In this document: one piece after another, positions 1,482 through 40,284 of the stretch
Position numbering within the stretch: position 1 is the stretch's first letter
How the letters are laid out: each line of letters starts with the position of its first letter
Source of the DNA: Clostridia bacterium
GTDB lineage: Bacteria; Bacillota; Clostridia; Oscillospirales; UBA644
Length of the DNA: 40,417 bases
Direction: 5' to 3'
Assembly: GCA_017623475.1 (NCBI GenBank)
Contig: JAGAPC010000021.1
Location: 1-40,417 of the forward strand
Program-made: the position numbers and the translations under genes
Notes under the pieces: model-generated
Databases searched by the model: none
Seen by the model: only the letters and a program-made list of their open reading frames with translations
What the model was told of the DNA's origin: nothing

Positions 1482-5966
<4,485 letters not shown>

Positions 5967-20621: not shown

Positions 20622-23267
20622 ATGAAGCCCAATAAATATGTTTTTCAATCGCTTTTCTGCGTCGCTCTCTGTGTTATTCTGTCGGTTGCCTCGTTCGCGG
20701 TAACCGATACGGAGATCGGCGCCTCATCTTCCGCAGTCACCGATTCGGCAGACGCCGTCTCTCGGGTGCAGGCGGCGTACACCTTTGACGGTGAGGATCT
20801 TACGGAAGAGGTGGGCGGTCAGTACCCTTTATCCACCAAGGAATTCGGCAGCGCCCTCGTGGAATCGGTTCCCGGCTATCAAAAGGGCGGAATGAAGGGC
20901 TACGTCCACGCAGACCGTCGGTTGTTTGACGGAGTTTCACAGCTTACCGTCGCCTTTCGCACCGCCGTTACCCTCGCCGAGGCGCAGGACAAAGGCACGT
21001 TGTTTTTGATTCACGGCAAGAAGAACGAGTCGGCAGATCTGCAATTTACCGTTGCGGAAAACGCCGTCCTTCTCAAGCTGACGGTCAACGACGGAACGAA
21101 CACGTCGGTCTGTACCTACGACGTGACCGGGCTTTTGTCGGAATCGGCACAATGGCTTCACGTAGCCTTTACCTATCGGGTGTCGGGCTCCGTTTCCCTG
21201 TTGACTTTGTACGTAAACGGACAGACCGTCTCTTCCGCCGTTTCCGCCGCCTTCGCGGATCTTTCCGCCATGGAATGCAGTACCGCCGCGTTTCACGGAA
21301 TAACCCTTGACGATTTGTATTACACCGACGTTGCTCTGCCGTCCGAAAAGGTCAGCCGTCTTGCTTCTCAAACGGCAGACGCCTTTTTTGCCGCCGAAGC
21401 GGAAGAAATGAAAAACGAGACTGCCGATACCCCGGATAATCCCGATCTTCCGGTGGAAAAGCACGATTATTCCTGGGCGGCGTATCTTTTTGACGGTACC
21501 TTCGCCGCCGGCACCGATTACCATTCGGGCGATATTCCTGCCGGGGTGGATCAATCCTGTATTTTGATCGACTCTTCAAAATTATCCGAAAAATACGGTT
21601 ACGCGCTGATCCGTCGGGAAGCCTCCGCGCCGGAAGCCTACCTGACCCTGGATTCCCGCCTCTTTCACGGTCAATCGTCCTTTACCTTCTCCTGTTGGGT
21701 CTATCGCAACGGAAAATCCTCGGAAAACGAAGAATATCTTTTGGATCTGAAGGGCGCAGGGGTGCTTCGCTTTGCCCCTTATTACGGTGAAGGCGAAGCG
21801 CATTTGGAATATACCGACGTCCGAGGCAATCTTCAGCGAACGTCCATCAAGGACGGCAATCCGGGAGATTTTCGGAACAAATGGGTTCATTACGCGCTCA
21901 CCGTTTCCGAAGCGGGGGAGATCTCCGTTTACGTCAACGGCGCCGTCGTTGAAACGGTTGCGTCGGGCGTGAATCCCGCAACGATGACCTATACCCAATG
22001 CCGTGTGGTTACCGGTGTTTCCGCCGATCACACCACCCGCACCGCCGTTGACGAGGTTTACGTTACCCCCAAATCTCTTTCCGACGCCGAGATCCGAAAG
22101 ATCCATTTTTACGGACTTACCCGCTATACCTCCGAGGTCCTTCCCGATCCGGGACAGACCGATCCGGGCATTGACGATCCCGTAAATCCCTACGCCCCCG
22201 ACGGCGTGGACCTTACGGAAGACGCTTATAATCAAACCGGCGCGGTTTCCAACGGCTTTATCGGTACGACCTTCGACGATCGGGGCAGTCCGGGGCGGGA
22301 TTGGAATAACTCCGCCAACGCCACCCTGACCGGGGGCAGGCTGACCCAGGGAATTGCCTCCTACGGATTCGCCCTGGACGGCTCCTCCTTCGTCCGCTAT
22401 CCCATGGGCATTTTCGACGGGATTGACGCCTTTACCATATCCCTTTCCTATTTTTGGGAGGGGGCAGAGACCGGAGTTGCCCGATCCCAACGGATTTTCG
22501 ATTTTTCCCGCAAAAGCTCGTCGGTTACCGATCCCGTCGCATCCATCTTTTTGGAAACGGGCAACGGACTTTCCGGACTTCGTTTCGGAATCAGCGACGG
22601 CACCTCTTCCACCTATCTCTCCTGTGATTACAACGCCGTAAATACCTGGACGAGGGTTACCGTTACCGTATCAGACGGAAAAATTACGCTCTATCTGAAC
22701 GACAAGGTCGCCGCCACGGGGGAAACCCGTGTGGATCTTTCCGCCATCAAGCCGAATTTCTGTTATCTGGGCAGAAGCGGCGTGAAGGGCGACCCCATGT
22801 TTATCGGCATCATTGACGAGGTATATCTTTCCGATCAAGCCCTGTCTCCCCAGCAGGTTCCCCTGTATATCAACGGCATTTCCGCCGCAATCAACGGCGA
22901 GGAAGCGAAGGGGGGAGACCTTTGGGGAACGATTCTGATCTGTATCATCGTCGCCGCCGTCGTTCTGGCGCTCGTGATCGTTACGGTGATTGTCGTCATT
23001 ATCGCCCGAAAAGAGAAAAACACCTCGGAAGCCGACGCCCCCACCCCCGTGTCCATTACCGGACCCGACGAGGTCCTTCCTACGGTTCTCGGACCTCGGA
23101 GCGCAAAACGGCAGAATTCGACCGATCCCATGGAAGAAGGAGATGCAACGGTCAAATTCCGTAAGATTGATTCCGACGCTGCAAAACAGCGTCCGACCCC
23201 CGCCGATACGGAAATGACCGCAAAATTCCGCAGGGTTTCCGAAGAATCCACGGATAAAAACCATTAA
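20622..23267 (+). CDS. Cell-surface protein with three LamG/concanavalin-like domains and a cytoplasmic tail
   Basis: 881 residues. A signal peptide (about 1-28) is followed by three LamG-type jelly-roll domains (roughly 48-250, 285-505, 540-755), each with a WVHYAL- or WLHVAF-type strand and a YVNG or YLND turn; these folds often bind glycans. A single membrane helix at about 767-797 (GTILICIIVAAVVLALVIV) is followed by a tail of about 85 residues in the cytoplasm. The tail holds two similar sites, ATVKFRK (Thr843) and MTAKFRR (Thr866). There is no enzyme domain. The PrsA-like gene follows after 18 bp. A surface receptor or adhesin role is inferred. Confidence 0.82.
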   Translation: MKPNKYVFQSLFCVALCVILSVASFAVTDTEIGASSSAVTDSADAVSRVQAAYTFDGEDLTEEVGGQYPLSTKEFGSALVESVPGYQKGGMKGYVHADRRLFDGVSQLTVAFRTAVTLAEAQDKGTLFLIHGKKNESADLQFTVAENAVLLKLTVNDGTNTSVCTYDVTGLLSESAQWLHVAFTYRVSGSVSLLTLYVNGQTVSSAVSAAFADLSAMECSTAAFHGITLDDLYYTDVALPSEKVSRLASQTADAFFAAEAEEMKNETADTPDNPDLPVEKHDYSWAAYLFDGTFAAGTDYHSGDIPAGVDQSCILIDSSKLSEKYGYALIRREASAPEAYLTLDSRLFHGQSSFTFSCWVYRNGKSSENEEYLLDLKGAGVLRFAPYYGEGEAHLEYTDVRGNLQRTSIKDGNPGDFRNKWVHYALTVSEAGEISVYVNGAVVETVASGVNPATMTYTQCRVVTGVSADHTTRTAVDEVYVTPKSLSDAEIRKIHFYGLTRYTSEVLPDPGQTDPGIDDPVNPYAPDGVDLTEDAYNQTGAVSNGFIGTTFDDRGSPGRDWNNSANATLTGGRLTQGIASYGFALDGSSFVRYPMGIFDGIDAFTISLSYFWEGAETGVARSQRIFDFSRKSSSVTDPVASIFLETGNGLSGLRFGISDGTSSTYLSCDYNAVNTWTRVTVTVSDGKITLYLNDKVAATGETRVDLSAIKPNFCYLGRSGVKGDPMFIGIIDEVYLSDQALSPQQVPLYINGISAAINGEEAKGGDLWGTILICIIVAAVVLALVIVTVIVVIIARKEKNTSEADAPTPVSITGPDEVLPTVLGPRSAKRQNSTDPMEEGDATVKFRKIDSDAAKQRPTPADTEMTAKFRRVSEESTDKNH

Positions 23268-32324: not shown

Positions 32325-33095
32325 TTATTTCGTATTTTTCGTTACTTTCAAGAACGCATCGTAGTAGCGGTTTCCCAATTCGTATAGGGATCTTCTGCTG
32401 AAATGAATGTCGTCATTCCAATCCAATGTTGGACGGTTTAATTCTTCAATATTGGCGAGAAGTCCTTCGGTTTCAACGAAAAATCCATAGCCGTCGCCGT
32501 TACAAACGTCTTTGATCGCCTCAAGAATCGGGGCGCATCTTTTTTCGTGTTTATTCCTCCAAAGGGGAACGAAATCCCCTGCGATAAAGGGAACGTTCGG
32601 AAGATCGAACTCCCTGCGTACCGAAGAAATCAGCCCGGAAAGATTGTTGAAATGCACGTCGTAAGAGACGTCTCCGTTTGCTTCCGTTTCCCCTTGATGC
32701 CAAAGGAAGGCAACCACGCGGTTTTTTGGATTGAGGGAAAGGGCGGTGCGGATCATTTCCATCATTCGGAGATATAGATCATCCTCCATCCCCCAGCGAC
32801 GGTCGTAAAACCCGGTTCCGCCGACGGCAGATCGGAGAATCAGCAGCTTTCTGCCTTCCGTCAGCCGTCCGTCCTGCAAATAGCGATCGGCAAAGGAAAG
32901 GGAAAAGTTTCCGTGGGTTTCGTTTTTCATAACCCGTTCGGCGGCTTTCGTAATGGTAAAATCGCCGTCCAGATACCAAACGGAATCCTTCGGCTGGTAG
33001 GGTGTATCCACCGGTCCGCAGCCGTAGCCCTCCGCATTGGACTGTCCCGCCTGAACGATAATGTCAAAAATCTCTTCTCTGAAGTCCTTCAACAT
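32325..33095 (-). CDS. SGNH-type sialate O-acetylesterase-like protein
   Basis: 256 residues. The SASA/DUF303 esterase pattern is visible: the nucleophile block IVQAGQSNAEGYG, AVGGTGFYDRRW, FLWHQGETEANGD and the C-terminal catalytic pair in WNDDIHFSRRS. There is no signal peptide, so it should act on cytoplasmic or imported acetylated sugars. It lies 21 bp after proS with GGGAGG before its start, so it is co-transcribed with proS, an odd pairing. Confidence 0.85.
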   Translation of the reverse strand: MLKDFREEIFDIIVQAGQSNAEGYGCGPVDTPYQPKDSVWYLDGDFTITKAAERVMKNETHGNFSLSFADRYLQDGRLTEGRKLLILRSAVGGTGFYDRRWGMEDDLYLRMMEMIRTALSLNPKNRVVAFLWHQGETEANGDVSYDVHFNNLSGLISSVRREFDLPNVPFIAGDFVPLWRNKHEKRCAPILEAIKDVCNGDGYGFFVETEGLLANIEELNRPTLDWNDDIHFSRRSLYELGNRYYDAFLKVTKNTK

Positions 33096-33116
33096 AACGG
33101 TAACGCCTCCCGACGA

Positions 33117-34550
33117 TCAATACTGTTTTCCCCAATAGAGCATATATTTTGCCGGTTTTCCGCAGCAAACGCACTTATCGCTCAATTCTTCCTGCTCAAA
33201 GGGGATGCAACGGCTACGGACGCCGAATTCTTCCCGAACCGCGTCTTCACATTCCGGATCGCCGCACCACATGGTTTTAATAAATCCTTGATGGTTGTCG
33301 GTAATTTCCTTCAATTCTTCCTTGTTGCGGGCAACGTAGGTCTTTTCGTCTCTGTGCTTGAGCGCCTTGGCGTACATGTCCTCGTGGATGGTGTCCAGCA
33401 GTTGGGGCAGGAAAGAGGCGATTTCGTCCAGGGACACGGTCTGCTTTTCGCCGGTGTCTCTGCGGGCGATGACGCAGACGTTGTTTTCGATATCCCGAGG
33501 TCCGATTTCCAGACGGACGGGGACGCCCTTCATCTCGTATTCCGCAAACTTCCAGCCGGGGGACTGTTCCGAATCGTCCATCTTCACCCGAAGACCTGCG
33601 GCAGCCAATTTTTCCTTGATTTCAGCGGCTTTTTCCAAAACGCCGGGCTTGTGCATCGCCACGGGAATGACTACCACCTGCGTCGGCGCGATCCGGGGAG
33701 GAATCACCAAACCGTTGTCGTCTCCGTGAACCATAATAAACGCCCCGATCAATCGGGTGGTAACGCCCCAGGACGTTTCGTAGCAATACTGCAGCTTATT
33801 GTTCTTATCGGTAAACTGAATATCAAATGCCTTCGCAAATCCGTCGCCGAAGTAGTGGGACGTGCCCGCCTGCAGGGCAACGCCGTCGTGCATCAGCGCT
33901 TCGATGGCGTAGGTCGCTTCCGCGCCGGCAAACTTGTCGCTTTCGGTCTTTCTTCCCTGAATGACAGGCATCGCCAGATAATTTTTGCAAAAATCGGTAT
34001 AGACGTTCAGCATTTGGATGGTTTCGTTGATCGCTTCTTCTTCCGTAGCGTGGACGGTGTGTCCCTCCTGCCACAAGAATTCCCGCGACCGCAGGAACGG
34101 ACGGGTAGTCTTTTCCCAACGAACCACCGAGCACCATTGATTGTACAGCTTCGGCAGATCTCTCCAGGATTGAACGATGTGGGAAAAATGCTCGCAGAAC
34201 AGAGTTTCCGACGTGGGGCGAACCACCAGGGGCTCTGCCAAAGGCTCGCTTCCGCCCTTCGTGACCAGGGCAACCTCGGGGGCAAAGCCTTCCACGTGAT
34301 CTTTCTCCTTCTGAAGGAGGGATTCGGGAATAAACATGGGCATATATACGTTTTCATGCCCCGTCGCCTTGAACATGGCGTCCATGTTCTTTTGGATATT
34401 TTCCCAAATGGCGTATCCGTAAGGACGGATGATCATGCACCCTTTTACGCTGGAATAATCGACTAATTCCGCTTTCATGCAGATGTCGGTGTACCATTGG
34501 GCAAAGTCAACGTCCATTGAAGTAATTTCTTTCACATTTTTTTCAGCCAT
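33117..34550 (-). CDS. proS: Prolyl-tRNA synthetase, short archaeal/eukaryal-like form
   Basis: 477 residues. Class II motif 2 ([21 protein letters not shown]) and motif 3 ([20 protein letters not shown]) are intact. The anticodon domain and a C-terminal zinc-like CVCCGKP segment follow. The bacterial-form editing domain (INS) is absent, so this is the archaeal/eukaryal-like type also found in some Clostridia and Bacteroidetes. The start at 34550 is about 34 nt after a perfect promoter, with no room for a T-box leader. Confidence 0.97.
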
Positions 34551-34795: not shown

Positions 34796-34877
34796 CTTAA
34801 ATAGCACAAACGGTATGATTTACTTTACATATTTTGTGCAAAGAGAAATGTTACAGCAAAAACATGGAGGTACGTTC

Positions 34878-37800
34878 ATGAAACACATCTCAAAGGCTCT
34901 TTTGTCGGTCATTGTGCTGACGCTTGCGGTCGGAATCCTTTCCGCGTGCGGCGGTCCGAAGGGGCTGGACAAAAGAAGCGAAGCGTTCGGAAGTCCGGAA
35001 ACGGTTGCCCGCAACCGGGAGCCTTATTCGACCACGCTGATTCCCTACGAATCGGTCGAACAAGCCCTCGGCGGGGATTTTACCGCCTCTCCGTACTATA
35101 AATCTCTGAATGGGGAATGGGACTTCACCATGGCGTTGAATCCTTCCCTCATGCCGGAAGGATATGAAACGGTTAAGTACGCTTATACCGTTGCCGATTA
35201 CGCCCCCGTCCGGAAAAATCAGAACGAGCCCATTACCTGGGGTAAGATTTCCGTTCCCGCCAACTGGGAATTGGAGGGCTACGACGCCCCCTCTTACACC
35301 TACAATACCTACCCCTGGGGCAACCAGCTCGTCGCCCCCAATGTTTCCGAATCCTACAACCCCGTCGGAATCTACCGCAACACGGTGGAGGTTCCCTCCG
35401 ATTGGTCGGGACGGCAGGTTTACGTTACCTTTGAAGGGGTCGCATCCTGCGTTTACGTTTACGTGAACGGGGCTCTGGTCGGTTACGCGGAGGATAGCTA
35501 TACCGGTAAAACCTTCAACATCACCGAGGCCGTCAAGATCGGCGGCGAAAACCTGGTGGTGTTCGAGGTCTATAAATACTGCGACGGCTCTTATCTGGAA
35601 GCCAACGATTCCGTCAAATTCGGCGGTATTTATCGGGACGTTTATCTCTATTCTGCCCCCGACGCCCAGATCCGTGACTTTACCTACGATATGCAGATGA
35701 GTGGGGAAGACGCGCTGATGAACGTCACCGTCGCCCTTGCTTCCTACAGTAAGCCGGACAGCGGACTGACCGTGGATCTTTCGGTGTACGACGCTTCCGG
35801 AAATTGCGTGCTTCAGCCCACCCAAATCGGGTCGGAAGCAAACTTCTCTGAAAAGCCCGCAACCACCGCAAACGCGCATCTTGGGGAGGTCGGCTCCCGC
35901 GTTACCGTTTCCAAGCCCGCCCTGTGGACGGCGGAAACCCCCAACCTTTACACCGCAGTGCTTCAGCTGAAGGACGGCAATAAGGTTTTGGATACGGTCA
36001 GCAAGCGGATCGGCTTTAAGACCGTCGGCGTCTCTATGGACGATTCCGGACGTCAGACCTTCGTCCTCAACGGAACTCCCGTCACCCTGCGCGGTATTCT
36101 TTATAACGAAAACAGCGCCGTTTCCGGCATGGCGGTCAGCCGTGAGGAAATGATCTCCGACATCAAGCTGATGAAGGAGCTGAACGTCAACGCCGTCCGT
36201 TCTCCCGGACGTCCCCTCAGCGAAGAATTCATTTCTCTTTGTGACGAATACGGCTTGTACGTCATTGACGATATGAGCTTGAACTCCAACCCCTATAGCA
36301 ACAAGGACGAATCCTCGATCCCCGGCGATCAGAGCGTATGGCAAAATGCCTGCCTGGACCGTCTTTTGAGCGTCGTTTACCGGGATAAGAACAGCGCCTC
36401 CGTTATCATGTGGTGCGTCGGTAACGATTCCGGTGTCGGCTCCAACTTCTCGGTCATGAGAAATTGGCTGACCTCCGCAGACAACCGTCTGATCGTCTAT
36501 GACGACGATAATTCCGCCTCGGATCTCGTGATCGGCGCGGACTATTCCTTGAATAATTTCGTTCAGCTTTTGAACGATACCACCAATAAAAAGGCAGTCC
36601 TGTTCCAGGATACCAACGGCGGTTTGTTGAATAACGGCGGTAATTTCAGCGCCTATTCCGATCTGATGGATCAGTACTCCAATTTCCAGGGCGGCTTCTT
36701 CTCCTATTGGGCAGACAACGCCATCTATTGGCCCATCAGCGCCGATGACGCCGCTGCGGTTCTGCAAAGCACCCCCTACAACAAAGAAAATGCAGACCAA
36801 TACGAACTGACCTACGCCGGCAGCTGGAACGATGCCGAAACCTCCGCAAAGGACACCTACCAATCCCTTGCAGGTATCGTTACCGCAGACCGCAAGCTTC
36901 AATCCGACGCTCTCGAATTGAAGAACGCCCTGTCTCCCGTTTATATTGCAATGCAGGATCTTGCAACCGGCACCTTTAAGGTCACCAACCGCAATTCCTT
37001 TACCGATTTTGCTTCTGCTTACGAAATTTCCTATGAAATTACGGACGGAAAGAACGTCGTCAAATCCGGCACCGTGTCCGATCTCGACGTCAAGCCCGGT
37101 CAGTCTGCGACCTTTACCGTAGATTACGGCACGGATATCACGAAGGGTAATTTCTACATCTACTTTACCGTAAAATATAAGTCTGCTCCTTCCTGGACGG
37201 ACAGCACCGATCTTACCGTTCTTGCCAAGCAGATCTCTCTGACCGAAGATCCCTCCGTTTCCAAGGACGGCTCGGTTCAGAATCACGACGGCACCGCGCT
37301 GAACCTCTCCATCTTCCAGGCTCCCGAGGTTTACGTTTCCAACTACACCTTCTCCAAGGGGCAGATGTACGTCACCAACCGTTCTTTGAAAAACTTCAAC
37401 GAGCTGTACACCCTTTCCTGGACGGTGTACGAAAAGCACGCTTATTGGGAAAATCCCCGCTGGGTCATTTTCGATCAGGGCACGCTGAACAACTTTAACG
37501 TCCCCGCCGGCGCGGAAAACTATCTGGTTAATATCGGAAACAAGACCTACGGCGCCGCTTCCGAAGCGAAATACGCCGTCCACCTCGTTCTGACCTCGAA
37601 GGTCGATATTGCAGGCGTTCCCGCCGGAACTCAGTTCGCTTATACGCTGAACACCGACGAAAGCTCCAACATCCCCTTCCGTCTCGATCCTGCCCGGGAT
37701 CCCGTTGAGGTCAGCGTGGACGATTTGGGTGAGGTCACCTACGGACCTGCTCCTATGGACGAGGAGCCGGAGGTTCAGGATACCGACCTTGTGGATCTTC

Positions 37801-39833
37801 CCGAGGCTCCCGTCTCTTACGACGGCGCATCCGTCCTTCTTCTGGAAAACGACGGTATTACCTTGCGGATCGATACCAACACCGGCTTGATTACCCAATA
37901 CACCGTAGGCGGTAAGGAAATCTTCGTCAACGGAGAGACCTACACCCCCTCCATGATCTCCAACCTGCTGCGGAATCCCACCGGCGGCGACATCGTTTCT
38001 CCCTCGGTCACCACCGCATCCGGTAACATTCTCACGGCACTTTCTCAAAAATATGCGGAAACCAAAACCCTGCCCGAGGGCTATAAGGTCACGCGGGTTT
38101 CCGATAAGCAATACCGCATCGAGTTGAATTATCTTTGGGTTACCTACCCGGTTCAGACCATGAGAACCTTCAGCTACGACACCTATTACACCGTCGTGTA
38201 CGATATTTACGCAGACGGCGAGATCCAGGTTTCGGTGAAATATCAGCCCACCGTAAATTCCACCGTTCCTCTGGAGCTTTCCTCGATCATGACCCTCACC
38301 TCCGACTTTACGACCATGAGCTGGTTCGGCATGGGTCCCGGAGAATCCTATAGCGATAAGCCCGCGGATTCCCGCGTAGATACCTACAAGGACGTCGCCA
38401 TCGTCGATCAGCTGGGCTCTGACTATCTGTACAGCACCGGCTCGGGAGATAAGACCGAGGTTCGTTGGATGGCTCTCGAACGGGAAGACGGCTCCGGAAT
38501 TCTGATCACCAGCGATACGGACCTTCTCTCGGTCAACGTTTCCAAGGATTATCCCTGGAATTCCCCCGCTTACGTTTCCTCCGGCGCTTCCGCCGCAAGA
38601 AAGAATACGGTTCTCCGTGTAATCGGTCAGCAGAGGGGCGTTAGCGTCAATACCCTCTTCGATCAGGAATATTCCGATGCAGATTACATCGAACCCGGTG
38701 TGAATTACACCTATTCCTTCCGCATCGTTCCCGTTTCTGCCGGCTACGACGCCGATCAAATCAGCAAGACGGTTCTGAATAGCGGCACGAATCTGACCGC
38801 CCAGGAAACGGTCAATCTCAACAACAATTCCTTTGCTCTGACCAACGGAGCGACGCCCTCCACCTATCTGTCCGTCCTTTCCGACGGCTCGGTTGACGTT
38901 CAGGCAGCGCTGGGGAACGCTTCCCAATATTGGATCAAGGAAAACGCCACCGATCTCAACGTGGTTGACGCCTTCCGGATCAAGAGCCTTTCCAAGGGCT
39001 TGTATCTGTCCCCCGTTTCCAAGGATACCTACGGCGCCGTTCCCTCCGATGCCGAACTGACCTTGGGTACGTACCGCGGTCTTGCATGGCAGAATTGGAT
39101 CTACGAAGATAACCAGCTTTTCTGTAACGGCTACGGAACCGGCGGATACTACGCGCTGTATTTGGCAGGTTCCACCGGCTTCAGCAACGCCGGTGCCCGC
39201 TTGTCTCTGAAGGCGGCGCGCTCCGACGAACAGTCCAAGTGGACCGTAATTGCCGACGAGACCGATCCCACCCGCATTCGGATCCAGAGTGCCCTGTCCG
39301 GCAAATATCTGACGGTGGTGGATCGCATGACCTATTCCAATCCCTTAGTTGAGGATTATGCCTTCCGCGCACGGAACTATTCCTGCACCGTCAATTGGAG
39401 CAGCTATAACTCCATCGCCAACGCCACCCGCTATACTGCGGCGGATACCAAGACCTGGATCGGTGCAGATTACTACGTCACTCAATGGGATCTGCTTCCC
39501 GCCGATTCCCAGATGTGGACCTTCGTTCCTGCCCAGGGCGGTTATCTGATCGTCAATAAGCAGTCCGGAAACGCTCTGACCGTTGCCGACGGCGCCTTGA
39601 CCCAAGCCGAGGTTACCAACGCCGCGGAACAGATCTGGTCGGTCATTCCCTGTGACGGAATGTACGGAATCGTCAATACTGCCACCAACATGGCGTTGAC
39701 CCTCCGTTCCGTCAACGATACGAACGTGCTGACCGTTTACCCTTGGGATTCCCTCGCGATCCAAAAGTGGAACTTTGCTTCCGAAGCGGATCTGAAGGTA
39801 AATGTCGAAGCCGGAAACGATTGGTACAACTAA
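34878..39833 (+). CDS. GH2 beta-galactosidase-like lipoprotein with ricin-type lectin repeats; active site degenerate
   Basis: 1651 residues; the ATG at 34878 lies 7 nt after GGAGG and gives a lipoprotein signal (lipobox LSAC, Cys24). In order: GH2 sugar-binding domain (about 55-260), Ig-like domain, a LacZ-like TIM barrel (about 380-640), two successive domain-4-like beta sandwiches (near 702 and 830), a Bgal_small_N domain (about 985-1285) and ricin-B-type repeats with QxW motifs (about 1325-1645). The fold is clear from NAVRS, LCDEYGLYVID and VIMWCVGNDS. By motif alignment, E. coli LacZ Glu461 is Asp517, the nucleophile Glu537 falls at Gln577/Asp578, and ligands Glu416 and His418 become Asn469 and Asn471. 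Anchored outside the cell, it may bind glycans rather than cut them. Confidence 0.85.
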   Translation: MKHISKALLSVIVLTLAVGILSACGGPKGLDKRSEAFGSPETVARNREPYSTTLIPYESVEQALGGDFTASPYYKSLNGEWDFTMALNPSLMPEGYETVKYAYTVADYAPVRKNQNEPITWGKISVPANWELEGYDAPSYTYNTYPWGNQLVAPNVSESYNPVGIYRNTVEVPSDWSGRQVYVTFEGVASCVYVYVNGALVGYAEDSYTGKTFNITEAVKIGGENLVVFEVYKYCDGSYLEANDSVKFGGIYRDVYLYSAPDAQIRDFTYDMQMSGEDALMNVTVALASYSKPDSGLTVDLSVYDASGNCVLQPTQIGSEANFSEKPATTANAHLGEVGSRVTVSKPALWTAETPNLYTAVLQLKDGNKVLDTVSKRIGFKTVGVSMDDSGRQTFVLNGTPVTLRGILYNENSAVSGMAVSREEMISDIKLMKELNVNAVRSPGRPLSEEFISLCDEYGLYVIDDMSLNSNPYSNKDESSIPGDQSVWQNACLDRLLSVVYRDKNSASVIMWCVGNDSGVGSNFSVMRNWLTSADNRLIVYDDDNSASDLVIGADYSLNNFVQLLNDTTNKKAVLFQDTNGGLLNNGGNFSAYSDLMDQYSNFQGGFFSYWADNAIYWPISADDAAAVLQSTPYNKENADQYELTYAGSWNDAETSAKDTYQSLAGIVTADRKLQSDALELKNALSPVYIAMQDLATGTFKVTNRNSFTDFASAYEISYEITDGKNVVKSGTVSDLDVKPGQSATFTVDYGTDITKGNFYIYFTVKYKSAPSWTDSTDLTVLAKQISLTEDPSVSKDGSVQNHDGTALNLSIFQAPEVYVSNYTFSKGQMYVTNRSLKNFNELYTLSWTVYEKHAYWENPRWVIFDQGTLNNFNVPAGAENYLVNIGNKTYGAASEAKYAVHLVLTSKVDIAGVPAGTQFAYTLNTDESSNIPFRLDPARDPVEVSVDDLGEVTYGPAPMDEEPEVQDTDLVDLPEAPVSYDGASVLLLENDGITLRIDTNTGLITQYTVGGKEIFVNGETYTPSMISNLLRNPTGGDIVSPSVTTASGNILTALSQKYAETKTLPEGYKVTRVSDKQYRIELNYLWVTYPVQTMRTFSYDTYYTVVYDIYADGEIQVSVKYQPTVNSTVPLELSSIMTLTSDFTTMSWFGMGPGESYSDKPADSRVDTYKDVAIVDQLGSDYLYSTGSGDKTEVRWMALEREDGSGILITSDTDLLSVNVSKDYPWNSPAYVSSGASAARKNTVLRVIGQQRGVSVNTLFDQEYSDADYIEPGVNYTYSFRIVPVSAGYDADQISKTVLNSGTNLTAQETVNLNNNSFALTNGATPSTYLSVLSDGSVDVQAALGNASQYWIKENATDLNVVDAFRIKSLSKGLYLSPVSKDTYGAVPSDAELTLGTYRGLAWQNWIYEDNQLFCNGYGTGGYYALYLAGSTGFSNAGARLSLKAARSDEQSKWTVIADETDPTRIRIQSALSGKYLTVVDRMTYSNPLVEDYAFRARNYSCTVNWSSYNSIANATRYTAADTKTWIGADYYVTQWDLLPADSQMWTFVPAQGGYLIVNKQSGNALTVADGALTQAEVTNAAEQIWSVIPCDGMYGIVNTATNMALTLRSVNDTNVLTVYPWDSLAIQKWNFASEADLKVNVEAGNDWYN

Positions 39834-39844
39834 TTTAAAATGAA

Positions 39845-39880
39845 AAAAGCGGTGCTGCCTGTCAGCACCGCTTTTCCCTT
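39845..39880. terminator. Strong bidirectional terminator
   Basis: A perfect 13-bp stem (39845-39857 with 39863-39875, core GCGGTGCTG) with T-rich sides in both directions separates the GH2-like gene from the convergent small gene. Confidence 0.92.
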
Positions 39881-40164: not shown

Positions 40165-40193
40165 TTGACAATCCCACGAAGCCGTGCTATAAT
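40165..40193 (+). promoter_or_regulatory. Consensus promoter of tRNA-Gln
   Basis: TTGACA (40165-40170) and TATAAT (40188-40193) are 17 bp apart, 15 bp before the tRNA. Confidence 0.92.
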
Positions 40194-40208: not shown

Positions 40209-40284
40209 AGGGATATAGCCAAGTCGGTAAGGCACCAGACTTTGACTCTGGCATTCGTAGGTTCGAGTCCTGCTATCCCTGCCA
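40209..40284 (+). tRNA. tRNA-Gln (anticodon TTG)
   Basis: 76 nt. The acceptor pairs AGGGATA (40209-40215) with TATCCCT (40274-40280), with discriminator G and an encoded CCA. The anticodon stem is CCAGA/TCTGG with loop CTTTGAC and anticodon TTG at 40242-40244, reading CAA and CAG. The T stem is GTAGG/CCTGC. Confidence 0.97.

Follow-up and report, generated by a model that had tools for sequence, protein, structure and literature searches.

The window, the whole 40,417-nucleotide stretch of Clostridia DNA analyzed here, contains a gene for a large LacZ-like lipoprotein in which the residues that define the LacZ active site appear to be replaced. This raises the question of whether the protein still cuts sugars, by the known mechanism or by another one, or whether the scaffold has been kept for a different role. 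The gene and its immediate flanks are listed first.

34878..39833, plus strand: pseudo-LacZ lipoprotein gene, 1651 amino acids (aa) (open reading frame, domains, and GGAGG site)
34878..34949, plus strand: lipoprotein signal peptide, ending in lipobox LSAC with Cys24 (sequence and alignment)
39842..39878, strand not assigned: 16-bp hairpin resembling an intrinsic terminator, immediately 3' of the stop codon (terminator scan and sequence)
33117..34550, minus strand: proS (prolyl-tRNA synthetase), divergent neighbor (Pfam, synteny), kept in 17/19 genomes

A GGAGG ribosome-binding site (34866 to 34870) precedes the ATG at 34878. The lipobox, whose Cys24 is invariant in the alignment of 17 full-length orthologues, supports the assignment of the pseudo-LacZ as a bacterial lipoprotein, and the surface lipid anchor proposed in an initial annotation of this DNA is thereby upheld. 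The gene appears to stand alone, since the divergent proS starts 327 bp upstream. The terminator scan scores the hairpin on the minus strand, and by eye the plus strand also ends in a T run. Directly past proS, the window carries a SASA-type carbohydrate esterase (32325 to 33095, minus strand), a position held by a polysaccharide deacetylase instead in most relatives outside the window's genus. An antisense open frame of 1345 aa (34890 to 38927, minus strand) lies inside the pseudo-LacZ gene; it looks like an effect of codon composition, because a comparable long frame opposes proS (32913 to 34466) and others face further genes of the window. Elsewhere in the window, a 1494-aa protein with both collagen triple-helix repeats and BspA-type leucine-rich repeats (1482 to 5966, plus strand) is probably a surface protein, and an 881-aa protein with three laminin G/concanavalin-like stretches (20622 to 23267, plus strand) is a possible surface glycan binder. 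A tRNA-Gln (TTG) gene (40209 to 40284, plus strand) lies downstream of a perfect TTGACA-17-TATAAT promoter-like site (40165 to 40193).

The domain organization of the pseudo-LacZ is as follows.

35100..35660, plus strand: GH2_N jelly-roll domain, residues 75 to 261 (Pfam PF02837), 22% of columns invariant
35667..36020, plus strand: GH2 immunoglobulin-like domain, residues 264 to 381 (Pfam PF00703)
36054..36941, plus strand: GH2_C TIM barrel, residues 393 to 688 (Pfam PF02836), catalytic pocket lost
36975..37205, plus strand: LacZ domain 4 (LacZ_4), residues 700 to 776 (Pfam PF16353)
37215..37832, plus strand: additional region, residues 780 to 985, between domain 4 and the small-chain domain, about 200 residues without a Pfam match
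37848..38726, plus strand: Bgal_small_N super-sandwich, residues 991 to 1283 (Pfam PF02929)
38823..39812, plus strand: C-terminal tail of six trefoil repeats, read as two ricin-B-type beta-trefoils (Pfam PF14200, AF2, VIA-align)

The protein has GH2_N, GH2, GH2_C, domain 4, and Bgal_small_N in order and the LacZ fold, and thus belongs to the LacZ type of GH2; the NCBIfam LacZ-type models match it at no more than 609 bits, far below their own cut-offs. An AF2 model of the body (residues 75 to 1274; pLDDT 82, pTM 0.78) overlays on E. coli LacZ with a Z score of 42.0 over 917 residues at 3.3 Å. The fold is therefore intact and complete, in line with the initial annotation, which had found the GH2 scaffold to align well by eye. 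The tail, modeled separately (residues 1284 to 1651; pLDDT 87), matches ricin-B beta-trefoils with a Z score of ~20 over ~135 residues (VIA-align), which confirms the proposed long lectin tail as a fold. Its beta-trefoil repeats carry the QxW pattern of the ricin-B/CBM13 type, and the modeled secondary structure suggests six repeats, i.e., two trefoils. The tail is present in all full-length orthologues, with most QxW-type positions kept.

Residues of the active site were mapped by alignment with MG1655 LacZ (L139), 18 orthologues, and 73 related LacZ-type proteins. The positions that matter most are given below, with their states in the family of 19.

36105..36107, plus strand: N410 at LacZ His357; N/D in 19/19
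36207..36209, plus strand: G444 at LacZ His391; G in 19/19
36270..36272, plus strand: D465 at LacZ Glu412; Asp in 19/19, Glu in 73/73 related LacZ-type proteins
36282..36290, plus strand: N469 and N471 at the Mg ligands Glu416 and His418; variable in the family
36426..36428, plus strand: D517 at the acid/base Glu461; E 12, D 6, Q 1 of 19
36501..36503, plus strand: D542 at LacZ Glu487; Asp in 19/19
36609..36611, plus strand: D578 at the nucleophile Glu537; S 11, D 5, N 2, E 1 of 19

Both catalytic glutamates are replaced by aspartate (E461 by D517 and E537 by D578), so that the invariant Glu at the end of barrel strand 7 is Asp578 here. The active-site Mg site of LacZ-type beta-galactosidases is absent, with E416, H418, and E461 replaced by N469, N471, and D517. 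Among the galactose contacts H357, H391, H540, W568, F601, N604, and D201, all but D201 are replaced (H357 by N410, H391 by G444, H540 by G581, W568 by S609, F601 by Q662, and N604 by A665), and the pocket has further lost Y392 (R445) and Y503 (D555). Glutamate has also given way to aspartate at E412 (D465) and E487 (D542). The substitutions at His391, Glu416, His418, and Glu461 had all been read correctly in the initial annotation. Its broader statement, that every catalytic and metal-binding position is changed, holds for nearly all of them but not literally, since D201 (D244), N460 (N516), and R388 (R441) are retained. The acid/base motif NE in loop 4 reads ND in the window's protein; NE is kept in part of the family, and SE, TE, SD, or SQ occurs in other members. 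This loss is not disqualifying alone, as GH2_16 uses SD.

The register at the nucleophile deserves separate mention. KKAVLFQDTNGG aligns without gaps with KKPFLLCEYAHA or its Thermotoga equivalent (phmmer to Thermotoga LacZ, MAFFT, and hhalign). This register puts D578 on E537, and hence both catalytic glutamates became aspartate. In a small alignment, Q577 had instead fallen on E537, and three members of genus g2 would then have carried a catalytic Glu pair; this placement is ruled out by the gapless phmmer, MAFFT, and profile-profile results, each of which puts D578 there. The initial annotation had read the CEY block as FQD (Gln577/Asp578); in the gapless register, Q577 falls on C536 and is not the nucleophile position.

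How much weight these substitutions carry depends on what other GH2 enzymes tolerate. Other GH2 subfamilies, some of them active enzymes, also vary at the acid/base or the His (PMC12243196). Similar to the window's protein, GH2_16 has Asp as its acid/base and GH2_14 has Gly at the loop-2 His; unlike it, both keep the nucleophile Glu and are active (PMC12243196). The replacements of E461 by Asp and H391 by Gly are thus no proof of inactivity by themselves, because such variants occur in active subfamilies, and the case for inactivity rests on the nucleophile column together with the joint loss of the other residues. A 2025 survey of GH2 found the nucleophile Glu invariant across subfamilies (PMC12243196). 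Assignment to an unusual active subfamily was considered and rejected: GH2_14, GH2_16, GH2_19, and GH2_21 each explain at most one substitution, and none explains the nucleophile.

Homologues were collected from 99 genomes related to the source, the source included. An orthologue was found in 18 of the 19 other genomes of the same GTDB family, with 47 to 80% identity in the barrel and mostly full length (~1650 to 1730 aa); two end at contig edges. When 394 genomes of the order were searched with a profile, scores of 562 to 689 bits came from the source's family only, and the next best match reached 217 bits. A scan of genome_contigs returned the same 18 genomes, Clostridia metagenome-assembled genomes (MAGs) of which many are named for samples from ruminant or other herbivore guts, followed by a drop to ordinary GH2 proteins. 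No pseudo-LacZ was found outside its GTDB family in either the order (394 genomes) or genome_contigs. A wider spread through plasmids was ruled out, as the plasmid hits are ordinary LacZ relatives. In the maximum likelihood tree, all 19 sequences form one clade with 100/100 support, and its stem is long, at 1.34 changes per column. The gene is divergent beside proS in 17/19 genomes, and a polysaccharide deacetylase lies nearby in 13. A carbohydrate gene cluster or sugar-use operon can be discarded, since the neighbors are housekeeping genes (proS, guaB) plus the deacetylase in those 13. A pseudogene or assembly accident is likewise ruled out by the similar full length of the uncut orthologues, the absence of in-frame stops, and low dN/dS. 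The source genome contains six more GH2_C matches, including a LacZ-like frame of 1037 aa and another frame of 2104 aa; the match loci listed include G000:C2:7451-7879 and G000:C35:14866-15819.

Across the family, the catalytic pair (acid/base and nucleophile) is D/D in the window's genus and D/N, E/S, E/N, or Q/E in others. None of the 19 members has Glu at both positions, while the 73 related LacZ-type proteins have Glu at the nucleophile in 73/73. W568, F601, and H540 are lost across the family, and the Mg ligands, kept by the 73 related proteins, are scrambled. Within residues 40 to 800, 78 columns are near-fixed in the related proteins; the family keeps 43 of these fixed, and the 35 that are no longer fixed include almost every LacZ active-site residue. 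Mean entropy is 1.60 bits for 14 former active-site columns versus 0.36 bits for 40 other conserved barrel columns, a level that 0 of 20,000 random draws from the conserved barrel columns reach; against the all-barrel mean of 1.12 bits, the 14 columns exceed 99% of random barrel-column sets, and although the exact figures lean towards the hypothesis, because the site list came from knowledge of LacZ and partly after alignment, the direction is clear. Pairwise dN/dS (NG86) is 0.04 to 0.17, values that are rough because dS exceeds 1 for most pairs; the least saturated pair has a dS of 0.74 and a dN/dS of 0.11. Entropy and dN/dS together indicate a fold under selection while its catalytic columns drift. 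Conservation is highest in GH2_N and the barrel (19 to 22% of columns invariant) and among the lowest in the trefoil tail, where identity between genera is 30% versus 49% for the barrel.

The family also has positions of its own, including those of one loop.

36291..36344, plus strand: family-specific loop PYSNKDESSIPGDQSVWQ, residues 472 to 489, after the third barrel strand (alignment)

Newly invariant residues in this loop are P472, S474, P482, G483, Q485, W488, and Q489. Y409, P443-G444, D465, D542, L584, and several loop positions are invariant or almost invariant across the family; related proteins lack them or seldom have them. These new invariants alone hint at a novel conserved function close to the barrel mouth.

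A monophyletic GH2 pseudoenzyme clade kept by purifying selection is well supported by the comparison, because the 19 members form one clade without a Glu/Glu pair, the pocket is variable, the scaffold is fixed, and dN/dS is low. The initial annotation had argued for selection on the protein, and for a pseudoenzyme, from the length of the open frame; the claim stands, but on the family-wide evidence rather than on that basis. The window's protein very probably no longer cuts sugars, because the pocket is scrambled while the rest is preserved family-wide. The safest statement is that it represents a conserved, surface-anchored GH2 pseudoenzyme.

The reading we favor, and consider probable, goes further: a lineage-specific GH2 pseudoenzyme that, as a surface lipoprotein, has a non-catalytic structural and binding role. 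The glycosidase active site would have been lost once, at the base of one gut Clostridia family. The full-length LacZ-fold lipoprotein would be exported, lipid-anchored on the cell surface, and kept after the loss as a non-catalytic structural and binding protein. More tentatively, glycan might be bound through the C-terminal trefoils, which would attach the cell to its own envelope or to glycans of plants or mucosa. The LacZ body would then serve as a large rigid spacer, perhaps with a second interaction face at loop 472-489. Lectin-mediated surface binding by the trefoils is plausible by analogy: the domain type and the pneumococcal protein BgaA, adherent independent of enzyme activity, both suggest that the tail may bind glycan and contribute to attachment. 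Tail binding as the main selected function is weakened, because the tail is among the least conserved parts.

This low conservation of the tail, together with the high conservation of the LacZ body, leaves room for a pure structural protein, a large rigid envelope spacer or a platform for protein-protein docking, with no glycan binding by barrel or tail. However, the retention of the trefoils and most of their QxW-type positions in all full-length orthologues makes this unlikely. It is also rather unlikely that the old LacZ pocket itself binds sugar, as in a glycosidase turned lectin or sensor in the manner of Klotho. The intact fold and the retention of D201 (17/19) and N460 (14/19) would fit, but H357, H391, Y503, H540, W568, F601, and N604, which in LacZ contact galactose or wall the pocket, have been replaced, and the family varies freely at several of these columns. 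Sugar binding through this pocket, one sense of the earlier proposal, is thus unsupported: the residues that contact galactose are gone, and most of their columns vary.

An exchange of the Glu/Glu pair for a new barrel site (D465, D542, Y409, and the 472-489 loop), with a new hydrolytic mechanism or a ligand-binding function, seems to us similarly improbable. Its strictly enzymatic form, a rewired glycosidase whose barrel cleaves glycan with other carboxylates, e.g., D465 and D542, in a pocket that would include Y409, R441, and the new loop, merits still less credence. D465, D542, Y409, G444, and R441 are family-invariant, the first four are absent there from the 73 related proteins, the conserved loop directly follows the third barrel strand, and GH2_21 is believed to rely on a substitute acid/base (PMC12243196). 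However, variability at and near the former catalytic residues exceeds the average for the barrel, R441 is also common to ordinary GH2 proteins, and the Glu-to-Asp changes at D465 and D542 may be mere repacking after the loss of E537. The rewired mechanism that the initial annotation had allowed is not supported at the old catalytic positions, where the nucleophile column is S/D/N/E.

Slow hydrolysis by the window's protein alone may remain, because two Asp are kept and GH2_16 and GH2_14 offer precedents. That it is an ordinary slow beta-galactosidase, with the D517/D578 pair working in the window's genus, is nonetheless highly improbable: the genus keeps two carboxylates at the right places, but the nucleophile is Ser or Asn in orthologues from the same locus, the Mg ligands, H357, H391, H540, W568, and F601 are gone too, and another LacZ-like protein of the source genome (G000:C35) fits the GH2 barrel profile far better (5.3e-91 versus 1.7e-46).

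The pseudoenzyme can be set beside several known systems. Similar to LacZ-type GH2 enzymes (E. coli LacZ; Thermotoga maritima 6sd0, 26% identity in structural alignment), it has the five LacZ domains in order and equivalents of R388, D201, and N460. It differs from them in lacking the catalytic, metal, and most galactose-contact residues and in being a lipoprotein with the extra 780-985 region and C-terminal trefoils. Few enzymes have been studied as thoroughly as LacZ, and the nucleophile lost here is the one that the 2025 survey calls invariant. If the pseudoenzyme reading is true, a 1000-residue LacZ scaffold can serve non-catalytic work, and automatic labels of "beta-galactosidase" in MAGs from rumen and gut need correcting. 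In addition, these natural relatives carry the substitutions of the classic E. coli LacZ mutants H418N, E416Q, and N460S/T, for which structures are solved.

Klotho, the chitinase-like lectins, and heparanase 2 are glycosidase scaffolds kept under selection without their catalytic acids. Beetle GH28 pseudoenzymes likewise kept the scaffold after loss of the catalytic acids (PMC6549527). Unlike the protein described here, the known glycosidase pseudoenzymes belong to other GH families and are mostly eukaryotic. In the open-access literature, we found no report of a GH2 pseudoenzyme or of such a GH2 clade, and nothing direct on E461D/E537D kinetics; the novelty of the clade is provisional, as the literature searched was open access only. 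Within GH2, pneumococcal BgaA is a surface adhesin whose E564Q variant, without detectable activity, still adheres (PMC3167885, PMC4161441). Like the pseudo-LacZ, BgaA is a very large surface GH2 protein with carbohydrate-binding modules. It differs in being naturally active and in having CBM71 rather than ricin-B trefoils, and the pseudo-LacZ may thus represent an activity-free counterpart to a BgaA-type GH2 adhesin.
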